Shown here: one piece after another, positions 27,240-41,368 of the stretch
How the letters are laid out: every line of letters starts with the position of its first letter
Position numbering within the stretch: the stretch's first letter is position 1
DNA from: Legionella quateirensis
Lineage (GTDB): Bacteria; Pseudomonadota; Gammaproteobacteria; Legionellales; Legionellaceae
NCBI RefSeq assembly: GCF_001467955.1
Contig: NZ_LNYR01000012.1
Location: 1-64,000 of the forward strand
Length of the DNA: 64,000 nt
Direction of reading: 5' to 3'
Position numbers and translations under genes: made by a program
Notes under the pieces: generated by a model
What the model was told of the DNA's origin: nothing
The model's database searches: none
The model's input: only the letters and a program-made list of their open reading frames with translations

Positions 27240-28466
27240 ATGCCGCAATATACTTACACGGCTCGTGATCAAAATGGTAAAGCACTATCTGGACAGCGTA
27301 ACGCTGCGAATCCAGAAGAGCTTGCTAACCAACTCATAGCGGATAATCTTATTCCAATTGATATCTCAATTTCAACGGCAACGAGCTCGACTCCGGCCAA
27401 ACAAAAAGTTAAATGGTTCGAATCTAAAGTACCTCAATCTGAACTCCATATGTTTTGCAGACAAATGTATTCATTGCTCCATGCGGGAATTCCTCTAGCT
27501 ACCTCAGTAGAGCGACTGTCTGAAACAACTCATAACACAACCTTATCTGAAGCTTTGATTCAAATTCTACATACTTTAAATAAAGGCACATCACTTCATG
27601 TTGCTATGGCACAATATCCAAATATATTTACCGACTTTTTTTTAAATTTGATAATTGTTGGGGAAAATACAGGAAATCTGGACAAAATTTTCTTGCATCT
27701 TGCTGATTATCTTGAACTTGAAGTAGACATTACCAAAAAGGTAAAAACTGCCTTACGTTATCCAACTATGGTAATCGTCGCGATAGTGGTTGCGTTAATC
27801 ATTATTAATGTCTTTGTTATACCTTCATTTGCAAAGTTGTATGCCAGTTTCCAAAGTCAGTTGCCATTACCAACTCGTATTCTAATGGCCAGCTCCAATT
27901 TTATATTGAGCTATTGGTACTTAATGATTGGTTTTGCTGTACTTACTATTTTGGGGATTCGTGCTTATGTAAAAACGGATTCAGGGGCGATGTTCTGGGG
28001 ACGATTACAACTGAAGATTCCAATAATAGGCTGGCTGATACATCGTATTCTTCTTGCTCGATTCGCGCGCTTGCTTGCATTGGTTTTACGGGCCGGTATC
28101 CCTGCTGTCGAGGGCATTCAGATGGTTGGGGCTTCAACAGGGAATCTTTATGTTGCAAATAAAATCAAGTCTGTTACCGATTTAATCGTTCGGGGTAATA
28201 CAATTTCTGCTGCCATCACTCAAACAGAGCTTTTTCCGCCTTTAATTATTCAGATGATTAGCCTTGGTGAAGAAAGTGGAACGATAGACGAATTACTGGA
28301 TGAAGTTGCAGAATATTATCAACGGGAAATCAATTATGACATTGTCCGATTAAGTGATGCTATCGAACCGATTTTACTGGTTGTGATGGCGGGTATGGTA
28401 TTAATCCTTGCTCTTGGTGTTCTTTTGCCAATGTGGAGCATGGCTAGTTTGATACAGAAACGATGA
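27240..28466 (+). CDS. mshG: MSHA pilus inner-membrane platform protein MshG (PilC/GspF family)
   Basis: A 408-residue protein with two GspF-type domains and three membrane helices (about 172-195, 222-243, 376-400). The sequence LHMFCRQMYSLLHAGIPLATSVERL matches PilC/MshG, and the conserved NTGNLDKIFLHLADYLE and GEESGTIDELLDEVAEYYQRE occur at equivalent places in both halves. It organises pilin insertion and extraction. It is paralogous to lspF at 7729 but distinct. It is the first gene of the pilus locus, with a 198-base leader region upstream that must hold the promoter. Confidence 0.9.
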   Translation: MPQYTYTARDQNGKALSGQRNAANPEELANQLIADNLIPIDISISTATSSTPAKQKVKWFESKVPQSELHMFCRQMYSLLHAGIPLATSVERLSETTHNTTLSEALIQILHTLNKGTSLHVAMAQYPNIFTDFFLNLIIVGENTGNLDKIFLHLADYLELEVDITKKVKTALRYPTMVIVAIVVALIIINVFVIPSFAKLYASFQSQLPLPTRILMASSNFILSYWYLMIGFAVLTILGIRAYVKTDSGAMFWGRLQLKIPIIGWLIHRILLARFARLLALVLRAGIPAVEGIQMVGASTGNLYVANKIKSVTDLIVRGNTISAAITQTELFPPLIIQMISLGEESGTIDELLDEVAEYYQREINYDIVRLSDAIEPILLVVMAGMVLILALGVLLPMWSMASLIQKR

Positions 28467-28930
28467 TTAACTTAGGACGATCCTATGAATTTACACGAAT
28501 GCATCTGGCAATCGTTCTTTGTTTGATTGCAGTATTGGTGGGTACTCTCTTACGTTATTTTGAAGTGCTTGAAGCTACGGTAGAAAGAACTACTGTAAGT
28601 ATGAATCTTAACACGATAATGCAACTGGCTCATTCCCAAAGCATACTATTGAAGCAGACTGATCCCGATTGCTCTTATCTGAATAATTCTGATTATATTT
28701 TCCAGGCATCGGGATTCGCTTCGCCAGAAGATCAGGAAAGCGGATATTGGCAATATAATCCTGTTCTTCATCAACTAACCTACAAAGTTCGTGGCAAACG
28801 ATATTTTTGGTCAAATATTGATCAAAAAATTGTAGTTGATCTATACTGTGATAAGGGTATAGTTGAATTTACAGTGAGTTCTTATAGATGGTGTCAGGAT
28901 ATGCGTCTATGGGGTTGTCATGAGTGGTAA
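28463..28930 (+). CDS. MshF-like pilus accessory protein
   Basis: A 155-residue protein whose start overlaps the mshG stop (ATGA). It has one N-terminal membrane helix (about 15-33) without a prepilin G|FTLIE site, then a periplasmic domain with a Cys cluster near the end (YRWCQDMRLWGCHEW) and DPDCSYL earlier. Position directly after mshG and overall layout match MshF of Vibrio, a poorly understood MSHA component. The assignment rests mainly on context. Confidence 0.65.
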   Translation: MINLGRSYEFTRMHLAIVLCLIAVLVGTLLRYFEVLEATVERTTVSMNLNTIMQLAHSQSILLKQTDPDCSYLNNSDYIFQASGFASPEDQESGYWQYNPVLHQLTYKVRGKRYFWSNIDQKIVVDLYCDKGIVEFTVSSYRWCQDMRLWGCHEW

Positions 28931-28980
28931 GTTGTTAGGGATGAGAAAACAGTACTTATTTACACTTTTTGAGGAGTATA

Positions 28981-29433
28981 ATGGTGAAGCAACGTGGTTT
29001 TACTCTTATTGAATTAGTTATTGTCATTATACTACTAGGAATTTTAGCTGCAGTGGCAATTCCCAAGTATTATGATTTTACTACTCAAGCACGAATCTCA
29101 GCTTTAAATGGTATTTTGGGTTCTGTGGCTTCAGCCAGTCAAATAACTCATTCAGCGGTTATCGTAAATAATTTACCTGATTCTACTGCTTCTATTATTA
29201 TGGATGGGGCTACTGTAACTTTGCTCCATAAATATCCAGCATCAGCTGCTGGAGGTATCAATGTGGCGATATCTTATGTACCAGTACCAGGTTTTACTCT
29301 AACCCAAACTGCTACTACAGCAACATGGACAGCAGCAGGGGCTCCAACTCCAGCTACGTGCAATGTTGTTTATACTGCATCAACAGCAGCAGGTAACGCA
29401 CCGGTTATAACAATAAATACGGCTGGTTGTTAA
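28981..29433 (+). CDS. Type IV pilin, MSHA major/MshB type
   Basis: About 150 residues from ATG 28981 (GAGG 7 bases upstream; the in-frame TTG at 28969 is not needed). The leader MVKQRG is cleaved before FTLIELVIVIILLGILAAVAIPKYYDF, a canonical type IVa pilin helix with Glu5. The globular part is Ala/Thr-rich with two Cys (TPATCN and the final GC) that could close the D-loop. It could be the major pilin MshA or the minor MshB. A MITE-like copy separates it from the next pilin gene. Confidence 0.85.
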   Translation: MVKQRGFTLIELVIVIILLGILAAVAIPKYYDFTTQARISALNGILGSVASASQITHSAVIVNNLPDSTASIIMDGATVTLLHKYPASAAGGINVAISYVPVPGFTLTQTATTATWTAAGAPTPATCNVVYTASTAAGNAPVITINTAGC

Positions 29434-29444
29434 TACCATATATA

Positions 29445-29611
29445 CTAGGGGCTGTTGATAATTCATCTTGAATAACCTACTTCCCGCGCTTTATGCGCGG
29501 GATCCATACATACTCTGAGTCAATAATTCTATTGTTGACTCAATCTGAGTCTGGATTCCGCGCATAAAGCGCGGAACGTAGGCTCTAGAAGCAATTGTCA
29601 AAAGACTCTAA
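29445..29611. repeat. MITE-like element, full-length copy inside the pilus locus
   Basis: CTAG + GGGCTGTTGATAATTCATC on the left and CAATTGTCAAAAGACT + CTAA on the right. The inside contains CCCGCGCTTTATGCGCGGGATCC and the complementary GGATTCCGCGCATAAAGCGCGG. It is 167 bp, the same length as the copy at 21486, and has no coding capacity. It lies between the two pilin genes and may act as a processing or attenuation hairpin if transcribed. Confidence 0.9.
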
Positions 29612-29734
29612 TGTTAATCCACGATTTTATATCGTGAATTACGCATTTCGGATAATCAAGTAACAATTAATTGATATCTGATAAAAATTGGCTATTAGTC
29701 AATTACTTAGCTTTATTGCTTTTATAAATAGGGT

Positions 29735-29764
29735 TTGTGTTTACTACAAATACTGGTCTATACT
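29735..29764 (+). promoter_or_regulatory. Possible sigma-70 promoter for the second pilin gene
   Basis: TTGTGT (29735-29740), 18 bases, TATACT (29759-29764), about 97 bases before the pilin start. A separate promoter for a major pilin would fit the 430-base gap that breaks the otherwise tight gene spacing. The -35 match is only moderate. Confidence 0.35.
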
Positions 29765-29860
29765 TAATTATGGACTTAAGAGCCAATCAAATGGATGCAT
29801 TGCATCGATTTTGAATGTCAAAACGATGTGATATGTACGTGATTTATATGGGAGTGACTG

Positions 29861-30244
29861 ATGAACTTGCAAAAGGGCTTTACCCTGATTGAATTAGTAA
29901 TGGTGATTGTAATTCTGGGTATTTTATCCGTGGTAGCAGTACCTCTTTATATTGACTTAAAATCTGATGCTGCTCAGGCCGCAGTTAATGGCGTTGCAGG
30001 GGGGTTATCATCTGCCATGTCAGTTAATTTTGCTGCACGTACGGCAAACAGTGCGAAGGGCGTAGCAGTAACGAATTGCAATACCTGGACTGTATTGGCT
30101 GGAGGACAACCCACAAATGGGGGGGTATATGCAATTACTTCTGCTGTAATAGCCCCTGGAGCTACGGTTACTTGTACCTTAACTTTTACACCTACTGGTG
30201 GAACACCTGTTACTGCTACTTTTAGCGGTATGGGTATTAATTAA
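29861..30244 (+). CDS. mshA: Type IV pilin, probable MSHA major pilin
   Basis: A 127-residue protein with leader MNLQKG cut before FTLIELVMVIVILGILSVVAVPLYIDL. The short globular domain resembles MshA in its AAQAAVNGVAGGLSSAMSVNFAARTAN segment and has two Cys (VTNCNTW, VTCTL) that may form the pilin disulfide. The start is preceded by GGGAGTGA. It has its own upstream region with a possible promoter, as expected for the abundant subunit. Whether this or the pilin at 28981 is the main subunit cannot be decided from sequence alone. Confidence 0.8.
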   Translation: MNLQKGFTLIELVMVIVILGILSVVAVPLYIDLKSDAAQAAVNGVAGGLSSAMSVNFAARTANSAKGVAVTNCNTWTVLAGGQPTNGGVYAITSAVIAPGATVTCTLTFTPTGGTPVTATFSGMGIN

Positions 30245-30352
30245 TACAGTGAGAATAGTCCTTTAGATCAAGGACTTTTTGGTCCAACTGACCAACATAA
30301 TTTTAGCTGAGTACCATTATCAGCGAGTATAGGAGCTGGAGCAGGGTAGAAT

Positions 30353-30769
30353 ATGATGCGACCTACACAAGGTTTTACCCTTATCGAGTTTATAGCGGTT
30401 CTCATTGTAATCAGTATTTTAGCTGTAGCCGTAATCTTCAATTACCCTTCTGCAGGAAGCTTTAATTTAATTTCAATCTCTGAGCAATTAAAGAGAGATA
30501 TTCGTTACACTCAAACATTGGCCATGAGCTTAAATACATCTTATACCATCAATATTTCCGCGACTAATTATTTTATTTCTCCAACACCTCCACTTGGTGC
30601 AGTCAACATTGCCATGCCGACGGGGGTTACTTTATCTGCCAGCAATATCACTTTTAATGCATCAGGTACTCCATCCAATTTATCCATCGTTACCATTACC
30701 GTTACGGCAGCAGGCGAAGGATCAAAGGTGCTGACAGTAGCACCTGAAACGGGGTTTGTGAATGGATAA
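30353..30769 (+). CDS. MSHA minor pilin, MshC-like
   Basis: A 138-residue prepilin with QG|FTLIEFIAVLIVISILAVAVIF at the N-terminus including Glu5. The following domain begins LISISEQLKRDIRYTQTLAMSLN, the GspH/FimT-type helix seen in MshC and other initiating minor pilins. Two adjacent ATG codons (30353, 30356) are possible starts. It overlaps the next gene by 8 bases. Confidence 0.75.
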   Translation: MMRPTQGFTLIEFIAVLIVISILAVAVIFNYPSAGSFNLISISEQLKRDIRYTQTLAMSLNTSYTINISATNYFISPTPPLGAVNIAMPTGVTLSASNITFNASGTPSNLSIVTITVTAAGEGSKVLTVAPETGFVNG

Positions 30770-32267
30770 TCAGCGCGGCTTTTTAATGATGGTTATTGCC
30801 ATACTGCTGGTTATTGTAGCTGCACTTGCTAGTGCTTTTGTTGCGATGACGCTCAGTGGTACGAATTCGAGTGTCAGTTCTATTTCTGCAAATCGTGCCT
30901 ACGATCTGGCACAAACTGGCATTGAACAGGGGACTTACGAGCTCACTCTTGCAACGGCATGGTGTGATGGGAATTGGCAGCCAGCAGTTACTGTGAGTGG
31001 GCAAGGTGAATATCAGTACAGTTGTACTAAAAATACGGGTTCTACTACTCTTTCCTCTGCAATAACCGCCTCATCGACTGCAATTCCTTTAAGTTCTGTG
31101 TCGGGCTTAGCGACATTTGGTTCGATTACTGTTGATTCAGAGACCATATACTACGATGGAATCAGTGGAGCAACATTGCAACATGCCCGTCGTGGGCAAA
31201 ATGGTTCTTTAGCTGCTGCTCACTCCAGCGGTGCTTCGGCAAATCAGACTCAATATATTATTGCCAGTCAGGGAAGTTCCCCCTCAGCAACATCCCCCAG
31301 TGGTCGGGTTACATTGTCACAGGCGGTATTATTATCCAATCCTTCTACTTATTTTGCCGCAGGGGTTAACAGCAGCTCCAGCGGTGTTATTCTCAAGTTT
31401 GATGGCTCTTCCTGGTCAACTGTGTTGACAGGTCCAGTCAATTTTACTTTCACAGGAATATTCAATACCTTGACTAACGGAATTGCTGTCGGAAGCACTT
31501 CTGCTTCAGTTGGTTCAATTTACTTATATAATGGTGTGTCATGGGCACTGGCGTTGTCAGGTATTTCTAATGCCAATTTTCAGGACGTTTCTTGTGATAC
31601 AAGCACCAATTGTTGGATAGTTGGCAGTGGTGTATCACCCCCAAGGGGATTGATGTATCGTTATACTTTTCCGGGTACTTTTTCTTATCTCGCCAGCAAT
31701 AATTTTAACTTGCTTGGCGTAAGCTGTATCAGTGGGTTTTGCATGTCGGTAGGCAGTAATCGAGCCTATAATTTTTCTTCGAATACCACCGTCCCATTTA
31801 ATAATCTGACTAGCCTCTCCAGTACTATGAATGATGTAGATTGTCCTCAAACCAATAGATGTGTTGCAGTACGAAGCAATGGACGCGTGTATTATTTCAA
31901 TGGGGTGTGGAGTGGTCCTTATACTCTGACTAATAATTCATTAAATTCCGTACATTGCCCTAATACCAGTCTGTGTATTTTGGTAGGAAACAATGGGGTT
32001 AATTTTAAATGTTCATTACCTATCAGTTCGGCTGCATCCTGTGTTGCCCAATCTGCCCCAAGCTCTGTTAATTTACAAGGAGTCCATTGCAATGCAACTA
32101 ATGATTGTATGGCCGTTGGCTCCAGCTCCGCTAATGCCTATCATTTTGATGGTAGTAATTGGACAAACACAGCTTTGGGAGGGACTTTTACTTTAAACTC
32201 GGTGACGGGTATTCCTGGCGGTGGAGGTGCTGTAAGTGCAACTCCTACAGTCTGGCGTAATCATTAG
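30762..32267 (+). CDS. Large minor pilin with Cys-paired beta-propeller-like C-terminus
   Basis: A 501-residue protein. Residues 1-60 look like MshP/PilX: NQRG then a hydrophobic helix (FLMMVIAILLVIVAALASAF), with no Glu5, and an RAYDLAQTGIEQ helix. Residues about 106-160 form a small module (FGSITVDSETIYYDG...RRGQNG...AAAH). From 195 on there are about seven repeats of the form V-x-C-x5-C-x-x-VG...Y-x-F-x-G-x-W; Cys pairs are visible at 278/284, 322/327, 361/367, 399/405 and 443/449. This looks like a disulfide-stapled beta-propeller, suitable as a tip adhesin. Family MshP is usually about 150 residues, so the extension is the striking feature. Confidence 0.8.
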   Translation: MDNQRGFLMMVIAILLVIVAALASAFVAMTLSGTNSSVSSISANRAYDLAQTGIEQGTYELTLATAWCDGNWQPAVTVSGQGEYQYSCTKNTGSTTLSSAITASSTAIPLSSVSGLATFGSITVDSETIYYDGISGATLQHARRGQNGSLAAAHSSGASANQTQYIIASQGSSPSATSPSGRVTLSQAVLLSNPSTYFAAGVNSSSSGVILKFDGSSWSTVLTGPVNFTFTGIFNTLTNGIAVGSTSASVGSIYLYNGVSWALALSGISNANFQDVSCDTSTNCWIVGSGVSPPRGLMYRYTFPGTFSYLASNNFNLLGVSCISGFCMSVGSNRAYNFSSNTTVPFNNLTSLSSTMNDVDCPQTNRCVAVRSNGRVYYFNGVWSGPYTLTNNSLNSVHCPNTSLCILVGNNGVNFKCSLPISSAASCVAQSAPSSVNLQGVHCNATNDCMAVGSSSANAYHFDGSNWTNTALGGTFTLNSVTGIPGGGGAVSATPTVWRNH

Positions 32268-32276
32268 GAGTAAACC

Positions 32277-32678
32277 ATGAGAAGAAGTGTACAACAAGGT
32301 TTTACTCTTATCGAACTGGTCGCTTTCATTGTCCTGATTGGTATTATTGCTGGTGGATTATTGGTTGGTCTGAATCAATCCCTCAGCAGTGCCAAAACGC
32401 CCACATCGATTACTCAGGCAAGTTTTCTTGCCAACGCGCGTATGCAAATAATCTTGATGAATCGATCCATTAATGGGTATACAACACTTTCTGATCCATG
32501 CACCACTACCCCTGGTTTAGCAATATGTACTCCTCTTTCGAACTACGCCACAGCCAATAATTTCACAGTGAGTACCCCAACTATTACCGGAACCAATCCT
32601 AAAATTATTACCATTACTGTTTCAGGAGCAGGAGATGCCAATATCAAGGCCTACGTATATAACTATGCGAACAATTAA
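32277..32678 (+). CDS. MSHA minor pilin, MshD-like
   Basis: A 133-residue prepilin with leader MRRSVQQG before FTLIELVAFIVLIGIIAGGLLVGL (Glu5 present), followed by a short domain with two Cys (DPCTTTPGLAICTPL). TQASFLANARMQIILMNRS is the GspI/MshD-type segment. GGAG precedes the start, 9 bases after the propeller pilin gene. It overlaps the next gene by 14 bases. Confidence 0.75.
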   Translation: MRRSVQQGFTLIELVAFIVLIGIIAGGLLVGLNQSLSSAKTPTSITQASFLANARMQIILMNRSINGYTTLSDPCTTTPGLAICTPLSNYATANNFTVSTPTITGTNPKIITITVSGAGDANIKAYVYNYANN

Positions 32679-33144
32679 GGGCTTTACCCTCATTGAAATG
32701 ATCATGGTAATGGTACTTTCCGGGATCATCTTTGCAATTGCCTCGGTGATGTTAAATGCTGGATTTACAAGTTATTTTACAGGGATAAATGTTACAGGAT
32801 TAAACAATCAGGCCGCATTGGTGATGGCTCGAATGACTAAAGAACTGGAACAGGCTGTAAGTTTTTCGGTAATTAATTCTTCAAATGTCAGTTTTACCAC
32901 ATCAAATGGTGAATCAATTACTTACACCTGGGTTAGCCCCGGGCCAACACTCACTCGTACAGGAATATCATCCCAGCCCCTTAGCGACGTGGTAACGGGA
33001 TTTGCGTTGACATACTATCAGTCAGACTTTAATAGTACATCTACTCTTGCTCTGGTTCGGGCAATAACAATCAATATGACGTTAAGAGAAGGGGATGAAA
33101 CCATTCAAATGATTAATACGGTCTTCTTAAATAATATAAAATAA
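32665..33144 (+). CDS. MSHA minor pilin, MshO-like
   Basis: About 159 residues from Met 32665 (MRTIKG|FTLIEMIMVMVLSGIIFAIA). The longer in-frame start at 32635 would give an atypical leader. The GspJ/MshO-type domain contains ALVMARMTKELEQAVSFSV and a beta-rich end. The start lies inside the end of the previous pilin gene, suggesting coupling. Its stop lies against a MITE-like left end (GAGTCTGTTGATAATTCC). Confidence 0.78.
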   Translation: MRTIKGFTLIEMIMVMVLSGIIFAIASVMLNAGFTSYFTGINVTGLNNQAALVMARMTKELEQAVSFSVINSSNVSFTTSNGESITYTWVSPGPTLTRTGISSQPLSDVVTGFALTYYQSDFNSTSTLALVRAITINMTLREGDETIQMINTVFLNNIK

Positions 33145-33281: not shown

Positions 33282-34205
33282 ATGTTCGGCTTTGGCAAAG
33301 CGAAAAAACCTTCACGACAACTGTCATGTCTATTAAGTGAGCATGGTTTTAGTCTTGTAGAACTTGAAGAGGGTAGCCGCATACGCTTTTGTGAACATCA
33401 TTATTTTCCAGATCCAAAACCAGAACTGTTCACCAAGGGAATATCAGAGGCAACTAAACGATATAATTTATTTGGTCAACCTTGTCAGGTTATTTTATCA
33501 CCGGGCTTATATCAGCTGTTGTTAATGGATGCGCTCGAAGTGCCAGAGCAGGAGATGGCTAAAGCCTTACGATGGCATTTGAAAGGAATGATTGATTACC
33601 CGTTAAATGACATCGCTGTGGATACTTTTATGGTACCTCTACACGGTGCAGGTGGCTTGCGAAAACGTGTTTTTGTTGCAGTAACGCCTCAAATCGAATT
33701 AATTACTAAAGTCGAATTGTTAAAGCGTTGTTTGCTTAACATTTCATCTATAAGTATTGCCGAGTTGGCGTTGTCCCAACTGGTGATGCGTGCGCCTATA
33801 GATCCTGAGTCACCGAGCATAGTAGTCAGTTATGACGCAAATGTTTGCAGACTGCACATCTATTATAAAGATAATTTATACCTGTCTCGAGCTTTATCCA
33901 TCAGTCCTTCGATTATTGAACCTGATAGCACTGCAATTCATGATATGGTTCTTGAGATTCAACGCTCCATAGATTATTGTTTAATAGAACTTAAATTGCC
34001 TGAACCTAAAAAGATTTTCTTTACCCCAAGCTTCTACGCTGCGGGAGATTTATTTCCTCAATTAAAGGAGGATCTTGCAAAGGATGTGCTTTTACTTGAT
34101 GTTCATGCATATTTTACCGCAGAACAGATGATATCTCCTCCGGTTATGGCTGAGGCGTTTTATGCTATTGGTGGTGCTTTAATGCATTTGAACAGGGAGA
34201 AATGA
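33282..34205 (+). CDS. mshI: MSHA biogenesis protein MshI (PilM-like)
   Basis: A 307-residue soluble protein with no membrane helix. The segments LFGQPCQVILSPGLYQLLLMDALEVPEQEMAKALRWHLKGMIDYPLNDIAVDTF are characteristic of MshI, an actin-like-fold relative of PilM that links the platform and alignment subcomplex on the cytoplasmic side. It opens the second half of the locus (mshI to mshE), where all genes overlap or nearly touch. Confidence 0.88.
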   Translation: MFGFGKAKKPSRQLSCLLSEHGFSLVELEEGSRIRFCEHHYFPDPKPELFTKGISEATKRYNLFGQPCQVILSPGLYQLLLMDALEVPEQEMAKALRWHLKGMIDYPLNDIAVDTFMVPLHGAGGLRKRVFVAVTPQIELITKVELLKRCLLNISSISIAELALSQLVMRAPIDPESPSIVVSYDANVCRLHIYYKDNLYLSRALSISPSIIEPDSTAIHDMVLEIQRSIDYCLIELKLPEPKKIFFTPSFYAAGDLFPQLKEDLAKDVLLLDVHAYFTAEQMISPPVMAEAFYAIGGALMHLNREK

Positions 34206-34840
34206 TGATTCAAACAATCAATTTTCTTCGCGATCTTCCTAAGGACAACAGTAGACTTTCCGTCACAAAAATGGTTTGGATAGTTATCGGGGTAACTGTT
34301 TTTCTTTTTATTCTATCTTTTTTCAAGGGGGTACGCATACATAATCTGCATCGTAACCTGAATGAACTCCAGCAAACCTTAGTTACTGAAAGCCAAACCT
34401 ACACTGAGTTGGTAAAAAAATACCCTCTTTTAAGTAATAATATTTCATTATCAAATCAGATTCAGGCATTGAGGATTCGGCTTGATGAGCGAAGTGCGGA
34501 TTATGCTGCTTTAGAACATCTGGTTGTAAGACCCGGCTTTTCTGAATTTATGTATGCATTGGCTCAAACTGTACCTCCATCATTATGGTTTAATCAAATA
34601 TCAATTAATTTGGAAAGCGACAGTATCACTCTCGGTGGTTACGCCGTTCGTCCAGATGATGTATCAGTGCTGATGAGTCGTTTAATGAAAACAGCTGCTT
34701 TTAACAAAACGGTATTTAATTTGTTTTATGTAAAAGCAATCAGTAACCGCCCCTATGTAAAATTTTCCATTGCAACGGATGATCTTGGTTCTGAAGATGA
34801 CTCTGAAGAACCTGCTAAAACCGATTCCGGGGGAAAATGA
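34202..34840 (+). CDS. PilN-like MSHA alignment protein (MshI2)
   Basis: A 212-residue bitopic protein: a short cytoplasmic start containing INFLRDLP, the PilN-type motif that contacts PilM/MshI, a membrane helix at about 22-42, a coiled coil (about 45-95) and a small periplasmic ferredoxin-like domain. It overlaps mshI by 4 bases. In Vibrio this function is called MshI2 or PilN-like. Confidence 0.82.
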   Translation: MMIQTINFLRDLPKDNSRLSVTKMVWIVIGVTVFLFILSFFKGVRIHNLHRNLNELQQTLVTESQTYTELVKKYPLLSNNISLSNQIQALRIRLDERSADYAALEHLVVRPGFSEFMYALAQTVPPSLWFNQISINLESDSITLGGYAVRPDDVSVLMSRLMKTAAFNKTVFNLFYVKAISNRPYVKFSIATDDLGSEDDSEEPAKTDSGGK

Positions 34841-35574
34841 CTATGAGTATTCACTTATTGTTTTTAAAACATTATCAGCTGATAAAACTAAGAGTAGAGC
34901 AACTAAGCGAGCGCGACCGATTCAGTCTATTAATCATTGTCCTTTCATTACTTTTTGGATTATGGTTTTTGGCAGTGCATTTTCCTCAGCAAAAAGCAAT
35001 TAATGACAGCTCCCTTCAAACGCAGCAACTGGATACCCAAGTTAATGAATTAAGGCAAAAGCAAACAGTAATTCATACCTTGCTGAACAATCCTGATACA
35101 GACCAGTTTTTAAATGACTATAAAGATTTAATGAGTCAATTGAATGTAATTGAAAAACAGTTTGCTCGTTATCGTCGTCGATACATCAGCAGCCGTGATT
35201 TAGCGAAATTGTTGCATGATATGTTGAAACAAACCTTTGGGGTAACCATTGTTGATTTAGCAACCATACCTCAAGCTGCTCCAGTTCAACCACAACCGAC
35301 AACGAATCAAGTTCCGTCTGGTGATGTCACATCGACTCAGAATGCATCAACCCGGATGAATATAGAACACACTTATTACCGATTAATCTTGAAAGGTAAC
35401 TATTTTCCTATAATGAACTATTTAAAGCGCTTGGAAGGGCTTAATTGGAGTCTGTATTGGGATAAATTTACTTATACCGTAAAAAAGTATCCTGAAGGGA
35501 TTGCCGAGATTGAGTTTTATACTTTGAAACTACCTAGCGATACGGGCAATGTGTCGCAAGGAGTGAGCCCATGA
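34837..35574 (+). CDS. mshJ: MSHA biogenesis protein MshJ (PilO-like)
   Basis: A 245-residue bitopic protein with a membrane helix at about 30-48 (FSLLIIVLSLLFGLWFLAVHF), a coiled coil (about 55-110) and a periplasmic domain, the same plan as PilO/GspM. Its partner is the PilN-like protein just upstream, which it overlaps by 4 bases (ATGA). A Pro/Gln/Thr-rich linker (about 145-175) interrupts the periplasmic part. Confidence 0.83.
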   Translation: MTMSIHLLFLKHYQLIKLRVEQLSERDRFSLLIIVLSLLFGLWFLAVHFPQQKAINDSSLQTQQLDTQVNELRQKQTVIHTLLNNPDTDQFLNDYKDLMSQLNVIEKQFARYRRRYISSRDLAKLLHDMLKQTFGVTIVDLATIPQAAPVQPQPTTNQVPSGDVTSTQNASTRMNIEHTYYRLILKGNYFPIMNYLKRLEGLNWSLYWDKFTYTVKKYPEGIAEIEFYTLKLPSDTGNVSQGVSP

Positions 35575-35912
35575 TCAACCTGTACTCCAAATTATTCTGC
35601 CCTATCATCATCCTGTTTTATCTGCTGTTTCCGAATATTGGTCTGGCGTATTTAAGTGATCCGACAAAACCTAAAGTAAACACGGAAGAGCAGGTATCCA
35701 AAGTTAAAGGCACGCCTTTTAATCTTCAAAGTATATTAATCGGAAGAATGAGGCGACTTGCCATGATCAATGAACAAATTGTGAGTGTTGGCAGTTCTAT
35801 TAACGGCGCTCGCGTTCTTGCTATTGATAAAAATCATGTGGTATTGTTGTACTCTGGCCGTAAGGTCGTCTTGTATTTATTTGGAAAAAGGTTGTGGACA
35901 AAACGTAGATGA
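35571..35912 (+). CDS. mshK: MSHA biogenesis protein MshK (PilP/GspC-like)
   Basis: A 113-residue exported protein with an N-terminal hydrophobic signal or anchor (about 8-27), then DPTKP and a small homology-region domain (LQSILIGRMRRLAMINEQIVSVGSSINGARVLAIDKNHVVL) typical of GspC/PilP/MshK proteins that dock onto the secretin. It overlaps the genes on both sides by 4 bases. Confidence 0.82.
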   Translation: MINLYSKLFCPIIILFYLLFPNIGLAYLSDPTKPKVNTEEQVSKVKGTPFNLQSILIGRMRRLAMINEQIVSVGSSINGARVLAIDKNHVVLLYSGRKVVLYLFGKRLWTKRR

Positions 35913-37666
35913 AAAAATATACAGTTATACTTCTTTTGCTCCTCACAGCCTGTAATATGCATAAACCGCTTAAAGGTACTGCAATTGATGAAATGGATGA
36001 CGAATTGCAAACAGGCATTGCCAATAATAAAACATTACTAGCAAAAGATAGCAGGATGCCACATCGTAATGCAGTGCAAGCACTTTTACCCAGCTTGAAA
36101 GTACGCTCCGGCTGGTCACGTTCAGGTAATCAACGTTTTGATATTGCAGTGAAAAATGTACCTGCCCAGGCTTTTTTTATGGGTCTTGTTGCAGACACAT
36201 CAACCAATATGGTTGTGAGTCCTGAAATTAAAGGCACTATTACTTTAAGCCTTAAACAGGTGACTGTTGAACAAGTGCTTCAATCCATTGAAGATGTTTA
36301 TGGTTACGCCTATATTCCAATTCAGGGCGGCTATGAAATACTTCCTAATTCTTTAAAAACCCAAATTTATAATGTGAATTACCTGGAGTTGCAGCGTAAG
36401 GGCAGCTCTAATATGACCGTAAGTAATGGAGAGGTCACTTCGGTTGGTTCAAACAATCAAGGTACCAATGGAACAACTTCTACGGTTTCCTTACCTACCA
36501 ATATTAATAATAATCAAAGTTATAGTAATGTGATTGGCGCTGTTGAAACTAAAAGTGATATAGATTTTTGGAAATCGTTAAAGCTTACTCTCGAAAATAT
36601 TATTGGTAAAACGGATGGTCGTTCAGTCACAGTTAATCCTGTTGCTGGAATCATTGTTGTCAGGGCGATGCCCAAAGAGCTCAAACAAGTCGAAAAGTAT
36701 CTGGATGTCGTGCAGAACAGTATGGATCGTCAGGTCATTCTGGAAGCCAAAATTCTTGAGGTCAATCTGAGTAATGAGTTTCAAATGGGCATTGACTGGA
36801 AACTCTTCGGGGCAAAGCTTAATGCGCTGTCCAATTTCACTGGAACGAACGTAGACATACCTAATGCTGATTTTTCCAGTGCGGCAATTCGAGCTGCCGG
36901 TCAGGGTTTTGGAATTGATATCCATTGGAATCCCCGTGATTTTACCACCTATATCCAGGCTCTCGAGCTCCAGGGCAATGTACAGGTTTTATCCAGTCCA
37001 CGTGTATCTGCCATGAATAATCAAAAGGCTGCAATTAAAGTAGGATTTGATGAGTTTTTTGTTACTAATGTGTCTCAGAATCAGAACATTGTTTCTCAGG
37101 GATTAGTTACTCAGCCCACCTTAAATGTGAATTTAACTCCTTTCTTTTCAGGAATTACTCTTGATGTTACCCCTCAAATTGACCCGAATGGTCAGGTTAC
37201 CCTGCACATTCATCCTTCAGTAAGTCTTGTAAAAGACCAGCGAAAAGTCATCGATTTGGGTACTCAAGGTGGTATTCTTGATTTGCCATTGGCCAACAGT
37301 ACCATCCGAGAGTCTGATACTATAGTCCACTCCAAAAATGGTCAGGTAGTGGTCATTGGTGGGTTGATGCAAGATGCAACGACGGAGGGTATTGCTCAAC
37401 TACCCTGGTTTGGTAACATTCCTTTTTTAGGTACCTTGGTTCGTCGAACCAAGCAAAATTCCGACAAAAGTGAGCTGGTGATTTTATTAAAAGCAACCAT
37501 TGTTAACCACAAAAGCAACATTAAAGATCTTACAGATACTACTCGTAGAATTGCAAGTCTTAAGCGTGGTTTCCATTTGGGCGATCGACCTGATATCTAT
37601 GGTACTCAAGGAGAGGCTCCTATTGTTCTGGGTCCGAAATCAAAAGAGAATCTGAGTACACGATAA
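35909..37666 (+). CDS. mshL: MSHA outer-membrane secretin MshL
   Basis: A 585-residue protein with a lipoprotein signal (lipobox LLTAC, Cys about 15), so probably a self-piloting secretin. An STN/N0-like domain (about 75-150) and an N1-type domain (about 210-270) precede the C-terminal secretin core with VQVLSSPRVSAMNNQKAAIKVG and the hallmark VVVIGGLMQD. A Ser/Thr/Asn-rich linker lies at about 165-200. It forms the outer-membrane pore for the pilus. Confidence 0.93.
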   Translation: MKKYTVILLLLLTACNMHKPLKGTAIDEMDDELQTGIANNKTLLAKDSRMPHRNAVQALLPSLKVRSGWSRSGNQRFDIAVKNVPAQAFFMGLVADTSTNMVVSPEIKGTITLSLKQVTVEQVLQSIEDVYGYAYIPIQGGYEILPNSLKTQIYNVNYLELQRKGSSNMTVSNGEVTSVGSNNQGTNGTTSTVSLPTNINNNQSYSNVIGAVETKSDIDFWKSLKLTLENIIGKTDGRSVTVNPVAGIIVVRAMPKELKQVEKYLDVVQNSMDRQVILEAKILEVNLSNEFQMGIDWKLFGAKLNALSNFTGTNVDIPNADFSSAAIRAAGQGFGIDIHWNPRDFTTYIQALELQGNVQVLSSPRVSAMNNQKAAIKVGFDEFFVTNVSQNQNIVSQGLVTQPTLNVNLTPFFSGITLDVTPQIDPNGQVTLHIHPSVSLVKDQRKVIDLGTQGGILDLPLANSTIRESDTIVHSKNGQVVVIGGLMQDATTEGIAQLPWFGNIPFLGTLVRRTKQNSDKSELVILLKATIVNHKSNIKDLTDTTRRIASLKRGFHLGDRPDIYGTQGEAPIVLGPKSKENLSTR

Positions 37667-37680
37667 CTAAGGAGAGGAAG

Positions 37681-38592
37681 ATGTATTTAGAACATTTTAG
37701 ATTGACTAAAGCGCCGTTTACTCTCACGCCAAATACGGAGTTTTTTTGTGAGCTCCCCACACATCAAGAGGCGTTGAATGTTCTCTTGCTAAGTTTGTCG
37801 CAAGGTGAAGGGTTCATAAAGATTGTAGGTGAAGTAGGAACAGGAAAAACACTTATCTGCAGAATTTTATTAAATAGTTTAAAGGATGAGTATGTTACTG
37901 CATATATTCCAAATCCTGATCAGACGGCAGATGGACTACGTTTTTCGGTTGCTAGTGAGCTGGGTGTGCAACCTGATGAGCACTGGACGCAATATCAATT
38001 GCTTGAAGCAATTAATACTCGATTGCTGGATCTGCATCGCGCTGGAAAAAAAACGGTTCTAATTATTGATGAAGCACAAGCATTACCTGATTCATGTCTG
38101 GAGGCTATCAGGCTTCTTACTAACCTGGAGACAGAAGAAAGTAAATTACTGCAGGTAGTACTTTTTGGACAACCTGAACTTGATACCAAATTAGACCAGC
38201 CTTCTTTAAGACAATTAAAACAAAGATTCACTTTTTCATATGATTTACAACCATTGGCCCGCAATGATCTTGAAAAGTACTTAAGTCATCGTTTGGCTAA
38301 AGCTGGGTACACCTACGGCTGTATGTTTACTGAAGCTGCAAAATGGAGATTATACAGGGCAAGCGGAGGGTTGCCGCGTATTCTGAATATTCTATGCCAT
38401 AAATCACTATTAGTGGCCTATGGACAAGGAAAATTACAAGTTAATGGTCGTGCGGTAAGTCGTGCTATTGCGGATACAGAAAGCTCCGAACTCTTTGGTT
38501 TAAGGCCTTACCTAAAATCATTATTAGGTTTAGGGGTGATGAGTATATTAATTTTTATTATTATGTATTGGAATCACGGATTATCTTCATGA
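37681..38592 (+). CDS. mshM: MSHA AAA ATPase MshM (ExeA-like)
   Basis: A 303-residue ATPase with an N-terminal family motif (YLEHFRLTKAPFTLTPNTEFF), Walker A GEVGTGKT (about 54-61), Walker B VLIIDEAQAL (about 122-131) and a C-terminal membrane helix (about 280-298). It resembles ExeA, which helps place secretins through the cell wall, but lacks ExeA's periplasmic peptidoglycan-binding domain. AAGGAGAGG precedes the start. Confidence 0.9.
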   Translation: MYLEHFRLTKAPFTLTPNTEFFCELPTHQEALNVLLLSLSQGEGFIKIVGEVGTGKTLICRILLNSLKDEYVTAYIPNPDQTADGLRFSVASELGVQPDEHWTQYQLLEAINTRLLDLHRAGKKTVLIIDEAQALPDSCLEAIRLLTNLETEESKLLQVVLFGQPELDTKLDQPSLRQLKQRFTFSYDLQPLARNDLEKYLSHRLAKAGYTYGCMFTEAAKWRLYRASGGLPRILNILCHKSLLVAYGQGKLQVNGRAVSRAIADTESSELFGLRPYLKSLLGLGVMSILIFIIMYWNHGLSS

Positions 38593-39623
38593 GTTTGCTT
38601 AATAATCTTCTAAAAGATCTTTCCAAACAAAAACCATTGAAAAACCCTATCCCATTGCTTCACGCAGTTCCAGGCAATGGCATAACTCAGTTTATGTGGC
38701 GATTGATAGCAGGTGGTATAATTTTCATTATTGTGTGTATCGCTTTAATTTTAATGAATAAGGTGAGTGACTCTCTATCAAAATTACAGGTGCCTCTCCA
38801 GGATGAGTCCGCGATTATAGTAGCAGATTCAGTTCTGAGAGCAGCTCCTTTGGAGCCACTTAAACCGATTAGTTATATTCCTGCACTTCCTCCTGTACAA
38901 GCTCTCGAATCAAAGTTACCACCAGCTCCTCAATTGACTTCTGAAGAGAATGAGATACCAGATTGGGTAGATACTCAGGAAGATCTTGAGCTTAAAGCTG
39001 CAGTTACTTCAGAAAGTACCACCATAAATAAGGTTTATGCCCCTCAAACTCTGAGTGAGTGGCATGATGCACAAATGAATAAAGCGCTTCAATCAATAGA
39101 GGAGGGGCGTGACGATCGTGCAATTGAATATTTACAGGAAATTCTGGACAAAATCCCTAATGCGGTGAATGCCAGTGAAAATTTGGCTTCACTCTATTTA
39201 ACTTATGGTGATTTTGATTTGGCAACAGCAGTGGTTGATGAAGGTTTAAAACATACACCATCGGATATACCTCTTATATCCATTAAAGCAAGACTAATTC
39301 TTGAACGGGGCAAAGCAGCTGAAGCAGTTAAATATTTATCTAATTATCATCCACCCATAGAAACCTATCCTGATTTTTATGGCACCCTCGCTGCTGCTCT
39401 GCAAGGTGAAGGCAAGATAGTAGAGTCCGGTGGACTATTTAAGTCATTAATTCAGATTGACCCTACTAATGGTCAGTATTGGTTAGGCTATGCCATTTCT
39501 CTTGAATATGCTCATGATTTAAATCAAGCAAAGGAAGCGTATTTACGTGCTAGTCAAAGTCCGGATAGCGAAACGCTAGTTCGTGCATATGCTGAAAATC
39601 GGTTGAAAAAAATACAAGGATAG
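38589..39623 (+). CDS. mshN: MSHA TPR protein MshN
   Basis: About 344 residues from Met 38589 (MSLLNNLLKDLSKQKP), which overlaps the mshM stop (ATGA). The seven upstream in-frame residues are dropped. A membrane helix lies near residues 32-54, followed by a Pro-rich linker and TPR repeats (about 155-340; ALQSIEEGRDDRAIEYLQEIL, LASLYLTYGDFDLATAVVDEGL). MshN is a periplasmic scaffold of the MSHA system. Confidence 0.87.
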   Translation: MSLLNNLLKDLSKQKPLKNPIPLLHAVPGNGITQFMWRLIAGGIIFIIVCIALILMNKVSDSLSKLQVPLQDESAIIVADSVLRAAPLEPLKPISYIPALPPVQALESKLPPAPQLTSEENEIPDWVDTQEDLELKAAVTSESTTINKVYAPQTLSEWHDAQMNKALQSIEEGRDDRAIEYLQEILDKIPNAVNASENLASLYLTYGDFDLATAVVDEGLKHTPSDIPLISIKARLILERGKAAEAVKYLSNYHPPIETYPDFYGTLAAALQGEGKIVESGGLFKSLIQIDPTNGQYWLGYAISLEYAHDLNQAKEAYLRASQSPDSETLVRAYAENRLKKIQG

Positions 39624-39625
39624 TT

Positions 39626-41368
39626 ATGAAGCGCATACGACTTGGTGAGATTTTGCTTAATGCAGGCTTAATTAACCAGGAGACTCTTGATCAGGCTATG
39701 GAGCTGCAAAAAAAAACCGGTGATAAGTTTGGTAGAATCCTGATAAACATGGGCGTTGTTTCGGAACATGATGTTCTTGAGCTTTTTGCCAAACAATTAG
39801 GTATCCCCTATATCGATTTGGATAAATACGAGCTCTCTCCTAAATATACACAATTGTTACCTGAAACATATGCACGACGTTGTCGTGCATTGGTTCTTAA
39901 TGAGAAAAATGGTGAATTATTAGTTGGGATGGCTGACCCTCAAGATATTACTGCTTTTGATGCGATTTCAAAGGTATTAAAAAAGCCGTTGAAGTTAGCC
40001 GTTATCAGTGAGATGTCGTTATTAAATGCAATAGATAGAATTTATCGACGGACACAGGAAATATCAACATTTGCCCATGAGCTTTCTGGTGAGATGATTG
40101 AGGAGTTGGGCGGAAAAGAAGATGACTTGTTTGACGAGCTACAAGAAAGTGATGAGCAGGCACCTGTAGTAAAACTCTTAAACTCTCTGTTTCATGATGC
40201 AGTTCAAGCCAGAGCATCAGATATTCATATTGAACCTGATGAAAAATCGTTACGTATCCGTTTTCGTATTGATGGCCAGCTTCATGAGAATATATTAGAT
40301 GAAAAGCGTATTGTCAGTGCTTTGATTCAGCGATTAAAACTGCGTGCCCATCTGGATATTTCTGAAAAACGGATTCCTCAGGATGGTCGATTTAATTTTA
40401 AAATCAAGGGTAATTCATTTGATGTACGCTTATCCACTCTGCCAACCGCGAATGGTGAAGCAGTAGTAATGCGTTTACTCAATCAATCCAGTGAAGTGAC
40501 GGATTTAAGTCAACTTGGAATTGATCCTGCAACAGTAAAACGTATCGAAGAAATATATTCCAAGCCCTATGGGATGCTCTTGGTAACTGGCCCTACAGGA
40601 AGTGGTAAAACAACAACCTTATACAGTATTCTCGCCCGGCTTAATGTACCCGAGCGTAAAATTATAACGGTTGAGGATCCTATAGAATATCGCATCAGCC
40701 GAATTAATCAGGTACAGGTTAACCCCAAAATTGATCTGACTTTTGCGCGAGTTCTACGTGCCATGCTGCGTCAGGATCCGGATATTATTATGGTGGGTGA
40801 AATCCGTGATTCAGAAACAGCTCAAATCGCAATGCGCGCAGCTGTTACGGGTCATTTGGTACTTGCTACCTTACATACTAACGATGCTATGACCTCAGCA
40901 ATACGATTAATCGATATGGGTGTTGAAGGTTATATGGTCGCCTCTGCAGTGAAGGCGATTATTGGTCAAAGGTTAGTTCGTACTCTTTGCAAATCCTGTA
41001 TGTATACAGAAAAACCGGATGAACATGAGCTCATTTGGCTACAATCAATGAATGTTGATCCTCAACTTTTATTTAAAAATGGTGCTGGATGTTCGCATTG
41101 TAACTACAGTGGTTATTATGGAAGAGTAGGAATTTATGAGCTATTGGAGCTTAATACGGATATGCTGAATGCTTTACGCCAGAATGATTCAGCAGCCTTT
41201 GTCAAAGCAGCATTAGCGTGTAACACTTATCATCCTTTATCCGAATCAATCCTTGAGCTGGTAAAGAACGGTACGACGTCGGTTGCTGAGGCTATTCGGG
41301 TGGTTGGGCAATTAGATGAAGAATTTTTAAGAAGAAAAACAGATACTTCTGCTGAAATAGTTGAATAA
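39626..41368 (+). CDS. mshE: MSHA extension ATPase MshE with c-di-GMP-type N-domain
   Basis: A 580-residue PilB/GspE-family ATPase that powers pilus extension. The N-terminus (residues 5-60) shows the MshEN pattern RLGEILLNAGLINQETLDQAM followed by a second FGRILINMGVVSEHDVL copy; in Vibrio MshE this tandem motif binds c-di-GMP. Walker A GPTGSGKTT is at 322-330, the Walker B region RQDPDIIMVGEIRD at 382-395, and four Cys (455, 458, 489, 492) form the zinc site. It is the last gene of the locus, starting 2 bases after mshN. Confidence 0.94.
   Translation: MKRIRLGEILLNAGLINQETLDQAMELQKKTGDKFGRILINMGVVSEHDVLELFAKQLGIPYIDLDKYELSPKYTQLLPETYARRCRALVLNEKNGELLVGMADPQDITAFDAISKVLKKPLKLAVISEMSLLNAIDRIYRRTQEISTFAHELSGEMIEELGGKEDDLFDELQESDEQAPVVKLLNSLFHDAVQARASDIHIEPDEKSLRIRFRIDGQLHENILDEKRIVSALIQRLKLRAHLDISEKRIPQDGRFNFKIKGNSFDVRLSTLPTANGEAVVMRLLNQSSEVTDLSQLGIDPATVKRIEEIYSKPYGMLLVTGPTGSGKTTTLYSILARLNVPERKIITVEDPIEYRISRINQVQVNPKIDLTFARVLRAMLRQDPDIIMVGEIRDSETAQIAMRAAVTGHLVLATLHTNDAMTSAIRLIDMGVEGYMVASAVKAIIGQRLVRTLCKSCMYTEKPDEHELIWLQSMNVDPQLLFKNGAGCSHCNYSGYYGRVGIYELLELNTDMLNALRQNDSAAFVKAALACNTYHPLSESILELVKNGTTSVAEAIRVVGQLDEEFLRRKTDTSAEIVE

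Follow-up and report, generated by a model that had tools for sequence, protein, structure and literature searches.

A modular MshP with a predicted beta-propeller and a phage-related insert, a candidate tip-borne binding head of the MSHA pilus in Legionella quateirensis

What does a minor-pilin gene gain by growing to several times the usual length while keeping its place in a pilus operon? The question is raised by a 64,000-nucleotide stretch of the Legionella quateirensis genome (assembly GCF_001467955.1, contig NZ_LNYR01000012.1, positions 1 to 64,000, forward strand), hereafter the window. There a MshL secretin lies beside pilin and platform genes, the arrangement by which we recognise a mannose-sensitive hemagglutinin (MSHA) pilus, and the gene at the MshP position encodes 501 residues. 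We think it rather probable that its product, which we call modular MshP, is a GspK-type MshP without the glutamate at position 5 of the mature protein (Glu5) that carries two grafted domains and acts as a tip binding head replacing MshQ. This reading is built on the gene itself, its operon, the predicted fold, the lack of Glu5, sequence conservation and the exclusion between the propeller form and DUF6701.

The open reading frame (ORF) runs from an ATG through 501 codons with zero inner stops in the ORF list of the window, and its start overlaps the end of the preceding pilin gene (30353-30769) by 8 bases. After the leader the mature protein would have 495 residues, against 120-140 for the mature short MshP (16 of 16 recognised), so that the original prediction's estimate of about three times the usual length is right or slightly low. 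A frameshift or fusion artefact was ruled out by whole-length matches in three relatives of the same genus (51-54% identity) and in a fourth at 56%. The parts of the protein are as follows:

30762..32267, plus strand: modular MshP (minor pilin, inserted module and C-terminal propeller), 501 amino acids, from the ORF call and homologues
30762..30779, plus strand: prepilin-type leader MDNQRG, residues 1-6, from the sequence
30780..30950, plus strand: long N-terminal pilin helix, residues 7-63, from structure prediction
31053..31235, plus strand: small inserted module between pilin strands, approximately residues 98-158 (about 60 residues), from models and alignment
31236..31328, plus strand: last two pilin strands, residues 159-172 and 182-189, from model and alignment
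31338..32219, plus strand: predicted seven-bladed beta-propeller with five Cys-hairpin pairs, residues 193-486, from structure prediction
32220..32264, plus strand: C-terminal tail, low-confidence in the structure prediction

The N-terminal carrier is a pilin of the MshP/PilX/GspK type lacking Glu5, in keeping with the PilX/MshP-like helix proposed originally. Residues 1-193 modelled alone (predicted local distance difference test score, pLDDT, 87.9; predicted template-modelling score, pTM, 0.65) gave a helix at 2-63 and strands at 76-78, 82-97, 159-172 and 182-189, with the module between. When 15 of the 16 short MshP proteins are aligned with it, the modular form proves to retain the short protein, of about 125 residues, whole: the module enters behind the first long strand, whereas the last pilin strand leads into the propeller. 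The predicted mature N-terminus is F-L-M-M-V, and the fifth position after the prepilin-type glycine is occupied by a residue other than Glu in all 22 propeller forms and all 16 short MshP proteins; Glu5 is present in all five other GF-type pilins of the window operon. At E 0.01, PilX_N matches 8 and GspK 2 of the 22 aligned proteins, the window protein being among neither, and the three PilX_N matches that we inspected all fell under Pfam's cut-off.

For the C-terminal part, structure prediction gives a closed ring of seven blades at about residues 193-487 whose fold matches seven-bladed propellers, and in the predicted model the two Cys of each of the five pairs lie at, or next to, the ends of adjacent strands flanking a short turn, as the original prediction had expected. 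The motif V/I/L-x-C-x(4,5)-C-x-x-V/A/G-G/R recurs at residues 276, 320, 359, 397 and 441. Five such repeats had been claimed in the form V-x-C-x5-C-x-x-VG; the five pairs are present, but one has an x4 rather than an x5 spacing and one terminates in VR. The claim of about seven repeats ending in Y-x-F-x-G-x-W agrees with the seven predicted blades but overstated the ending, since only [FY][DN]G-x(1,2)-W is clear, at four sites (213, 256, 379 and 462). When residues 190-501 were shuffled, five C-x4/5-C pairs arose by chance in 15 of 20,000 shuffles and the full motif at least once in 82 of 20,000. The window protein has 14 Cys and is one of 21 among the 22 aligned proteins with an even number. 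From the predicted geometry, disulfides between the hairpin Cys probably form. The C-terminal end reads W-x-E in 15 of the 22 aligned proteins and W-R-N in the window protein.

The nearest solved relative by profile search is Ycf48. At E 0.01, Rax2 (a propeller family) matches 10 of the 22 aligned proteins and PSII_BNR matches 2, and neither matches the window protein. The top-scoring match in a viral structure library aligned poorly (root-mean-square deviation, rmsd, 18.2), and among close alignments the best was to a phage protein with BNR repeats (319 columns, rmsd 3.6). We ruled out a cytoplasmic or unrelated propeller on the grounds of the prepilin-type N-terminal helix and the location in a pilin operon. 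Membership of PilY1 was rejected because PF05567 is absent from the window protein, which has no Pfam match at E 1; the single PF05567 match in this genome is on another contig (C36). Membership of MshQ was rejected because the window protein lacks DUF6701 (PF20419), of which the genome has none at E 1e-10.

A profile of six sequences, run against 84,980 species genomes, returned 26 loci. In 23 of these the encoded protein opens with a pilin helix lacking Glu5 (one being a copy with a stop codon). The other three differ: L052 has another kind of pilin start, which does bear Glu5, L055 is truncated by the end of its contig, and in L056 a pilin start is absent. Record titles place 19 of the 23 in the Gammaproteobacteria and the other 4, all metagenome bins, in the Myxococcales, Betaproteobacteria, Verrucomicrobia and Nitrospirae. 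Within the fetched stretches, one or more machinery genes resembling those of msh (E 1e-3) accompany 21 of the 23, and for 10 of them MshL reaches E 1e-80 or better. Across 45 genomes of the genus, 6 have MshL at E 1e-100, and all 6 carry a propeller MshP. A close relative, from L. bononiensis, is matched over the whole protein and reaches 95% identity in its best segment; the remaining msh genes of the stretch fetched from that species are 84-98% identical. For the propeller, the ratio of nonsynonymous to synonymous substitution rates (dN/dS) is 0.076 when the window is compared with L. bononiensis (stop codon excluded) and 0.13 for L. gormanii against L. santicrucis, with two further pairs saturated. 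As far as such comparisons allow, the propeller looks conserved rather than decaying in the lineages with measurable dN/dS. Similar Cys-hairpin propeller repeats, with no pilin part, occur in several proteins of G323, from another genus of the family (L013, L024, L026, L028); one G323 match contains an internal stop codon. The Glu5-bearing protein of L052 (4684-8550, 1289 residues) has a pilin-like start followed by more than 12 Cys-poor propeller-type repeats, with mshE- and mshG-like genes upstream.

The second graft, the module at residues 98-158, was absent from the original prediction. Phage virion families match relatives of this module over approximately residues 94-185 in their own numbering: phrog_4406 is matched by 15 of the 22 aligned proteins (best E 4e-9), and for one relative the match is to a family of tail proteins (E 2e-11, residues 60-167). 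A tblastn search with one relative's module found 47 phage records (best E 7e-6), from phages of Synechococcus, Pelagibacter and Prochlorococcus and other cyanophages, some of the matches being annotated as baseplate wedge or tail tube. The window protein gave no match to PHROG families at E 0.01, and tblastn of the whole modular MshP against phage and plasmid records gave none.

How might such a protein work? From these features we infer its processing, disulfides, tip position, binding as an adhesin and functional replacement of MshQ. Modular MshP would be exported and processed by the pilin machinery as any prepilin, and the blade hairpins would be closed by disulfides in the periplasm. According to the account in a review, a Glu5-less subunit caps the tip complex that initiates assembly (PMC10191384). 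In the same manner, Glu5-less MshP would cap the minor-pilin complex that starts assembly, and the propeller would be displayed at the pilus tip. There it would act as the binding head and so take over from MshQ, elsewhere a separate putative adhesin.

We take DUF6701 to be the mark of MshQ, which is consistent with gene position in two cases; DUF6701 ORFs of 1385 and 816 residues lie directly after a short MshP, the longer one also containing LamG-type lectin domains. Among 60 fetched MSHA loci, some of which end at contig ends, we recognised 16 short MshP, 4 propeller MshP and one partial (L098, cut by the stretch fetched); in the remaining 39 nothing was taken as MshP under a hand selection that excluded weak or other-pilin-like matches. 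At E 1e-10, DUF6701 was found in 15 of 16 short-MshP genomes versus 0 of 17 propeller-MshP genomes, and this mutual exclusion in the genomes tested supports the original suggestion of a propeller analogous in idea to MshQ. An even sample of the class had DUF6701 in 79 of 369 genomes. Of the 139 genomes above the MshL cut-off, 135 (E 8.1e-75 or better) were typed; DUF6701 was found in none of the 10 that have a propeller MshP and none of the 5 that have a long MshP of another form, but in 70 of the remaining 120. The 17 propeller genomes include G051 (no MshL at E 1e-40), G353 (at a contig end, pilin part not seen), G404 (the stop-codon copy) and G393 (a propeller without the Cys-pair motif). 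G115 and G344 were added to the propeller group after the locus survey; because a single-sequence search had missed both, undetected long MshP are possible among the 120 other genomes.

Several observations weigh against a propeller head that replaces MshQ. Of the 15 short-MshP genomes with DUF6701, only 11 have it no more than 15 kb from the MshL used; G128 has it beside a further MshL, while G174, G175 and G395 have it on a different contig. These 4 of 15 cases lowered our confidence both in this reading and in the broader one, given below, of heads supplied in cis or in trans. In one short-MshP genome (G168) DUF6701 was not detected, and nine genomes have DUF6701 and no MshL at the threshold used, so that DUF6701 may not be confined to MSHA. 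The window protein has no Pfam match at E 1 and no NCBIfam match at E 0.01. The L. bononiensis copy (L031 6001-7503; L066) has one in-frame TGA inside the propeller region, and modular MshP may therefore be dispensable in that species. The genome-scan pattern, the only one used, included one Cys pair, so that the conservation of that pair in the scanned loci partly reflects how the loci were selected. A propeller MshP whose blades lack any Cys-pair motif (L014 799-2433) indicates that the staples are not essential to the propeller fold.

The lack of MshQ is also not specific to the propeller form, DUF6701 being absent from 50 of the 120 other MshL genomes. These genomes lend some weight to an explanation by shared ancestry, in which the MSHA systems of the propeller lineages were without MshQ from the outset, with no connection between the propeller and that lack. 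Fisher tests gave 2.8e-4 for the propeller genomes and 6.7e-6 for all long forms, values that ignore kinship and count related genomes as independent, and 6 of the 17 propeller genomes belong to one genus. Against such an explanation, the 10 MshL propeller genomes span 9 families and the 15 short-MshP genomes with DUF6701 span 12, and we regard common descent as an unlikely, though serious, account of the pattern.

In Vibrio cholerae, as reported in the relevant part of PMC7096442, loss of MshQ leads to less surface MSHA and piliation, retraction without MshQ is intact, and MshQ is a putative adhesin. From that report, MshQ may contribute to assembly in a way not required of a propeller, a further point against simple replacement. 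The lowered piliation with unaffected retraction also underlies the main functional alternative, in which the propeller is not an adhesin but a structural cap or assembly platform that takes over the piliation role of MshQ/PilY1 and binds pilus proteins only. The low dN/dS in both measurable pairs would suit such a role, as would the relationship to Ycf48, an assembly factor according to its model name. However, the C-terminal domain at this position varies, which suits variable ligands better, and we judge a purely structural role to be improbable. Three genomes (L017, L018 and L020) retain the pilin and small module and carry a different C-terminal domain, which in L017 weakly matches DUF7305 (E 0.00095, below the cut-off) and in L018 and L020 has no Pfam match; L022 and L023 have yet another. 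DUF7305 is also present in two neighbours of short MshP proteins, one a DUF6701 protein (L120) and the other a cut-off fragment (L113).

A different function, as receptor for a soluble ligand (DNA, protein or polysaccharide) in uptake or sensing, has a precedent in ComZ, which is proposed in PMC6561018 to be a tip pilin, contains a large beta domain within its pilin fold and has a DNA-binding role. However, the V. cholerae MSHA pilus serves attachment in the account of PMC7096442, and the separate PilY1 gene on another contig of the window genome means that uptake may use other pili. A soluble-ligand receptor is accordingly the least probable of these functions in our estimation.

Returning to the tip binding head, we tentatively propose, at just short of even odds, that MSHA pili obtain such a head in two ways between which lineages switch. 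It would be supplied either in trans, with a plain MshP recruiting MshQ, or in cis, by fusion to MshP; the fused position would swap heads (propeller, DUF7305-like and others) and include a module shared with phage virions. If true, this would explain the role of MshQ and its absence from many MSHA systems. An MshP whose fused head seems to replace MshQ points to where MshQ should act, which is testable.

By the usage of the PilB study of 2021, modular MshP would count as a modular pilin; the relevant passages of that study describe 264 architectures and name a propeller only for PilC/PilY1 (PMC8179133); a propeller pilin may already be listed among the 264. Like PilB and PilC of Streptococcus sanguinis, it has a small pilin carrying a bulky, putatively functional module for display on the filament, but those proteins join a vWA or lectin module to a type IV pilus pilin in a monoderm, whereas here a propeller and a phage-type insert sit on an MSHA MshP (PMC8179133). 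As described in the sources available, the enlarged tip pilins closest to it in design are ComZ and GspK. ComZ of Thermus thermophilus is a GspK-like proposed tip pilin with a big beta domain, but that domain is a DNA-binding beta-solenoid between the last two strands, whereas the propeller follows the last strand (PMC6561018). GspK of type II secretion has likewise been proposed as a tip pilin and also bears an extra domain within its sheet, but that insert is alpha-helical, with no propeller (PMC8179133, PMC6561018). PilC/PilY1 likewise places a beta-propeller at the pilus tip but is not a pilin, and its propeller is the carrier (PMC8179133), whereas modular MshP exemplifies a propeller as cargo on a pilin. 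MshQ is similarly a large MSHA-operon protein and putative adhesin but is separate and without a pilin helix, whereas here the head is fused to the pilin. Ycf48/PSII_BNR propellers share the fold and a detectable profile similarity; they act in photosystem assembly and are not known to have a pilin part or Cys hairpins. In the open-access literature we found no description of a propeller-bearing MshP and no match for DUF6701. The propeller discussion in the relevant part of PMC4471445 concerns PilY1, a review passage calls MSHA pili poorly characterised type IV filaments (PMC10191384), and a 2022 study places MshQ among components of unknown function (PMC9815625).

The remaining genes of the operon are listed below; msh names other than MshL were assigned from position.

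27240..28466, plus strand: platform protein of the GspF/PilC family, mshG position; GspF family match below the equivalog cut-off
28463..28930, plus strand: mshF position, labelled from position only, with no NCBIfam match
28969..29433, plus strand: type IV pilin, MshA/MshB-like, by position
29861..30244, plus strand: type IV pilin, MshA/MshB-like, by position
30353..30769, plus strand: minor pilin, mshC position, GspH/ComGD-like, with Glu5
32277..32678, plus strand: minor pilin, mshD position, with Glu5
32635..33144, plus strand: minor pilin, mshO position, with Glu5
33282..35912, plus strand: four ORFs, mshI-mshK position, labels positional
35909..37666, plus strand: MshL secretin, TIGR02519 at 250.8 bits (cut-off 250.2)
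37681..41368, plus strand: mshM, mshN and mshE positions, labels positional; mshE position 39626-41368

An exact promoter search of the region gave no match, and a looser scan gave 20 promoter-like sites versus 20.5 in shuffles. Terminator-like sites numbered 9 versus 4.9 (standard deviation 2.4) in shuffles. The two MshA/MshB-like pilin genes lie in tandem within 28969-30244, with about 430 bases between them. Between the second of these and mshC, at 30257-30295, are two stem-loops with T-containing tails, a possible attenuator.
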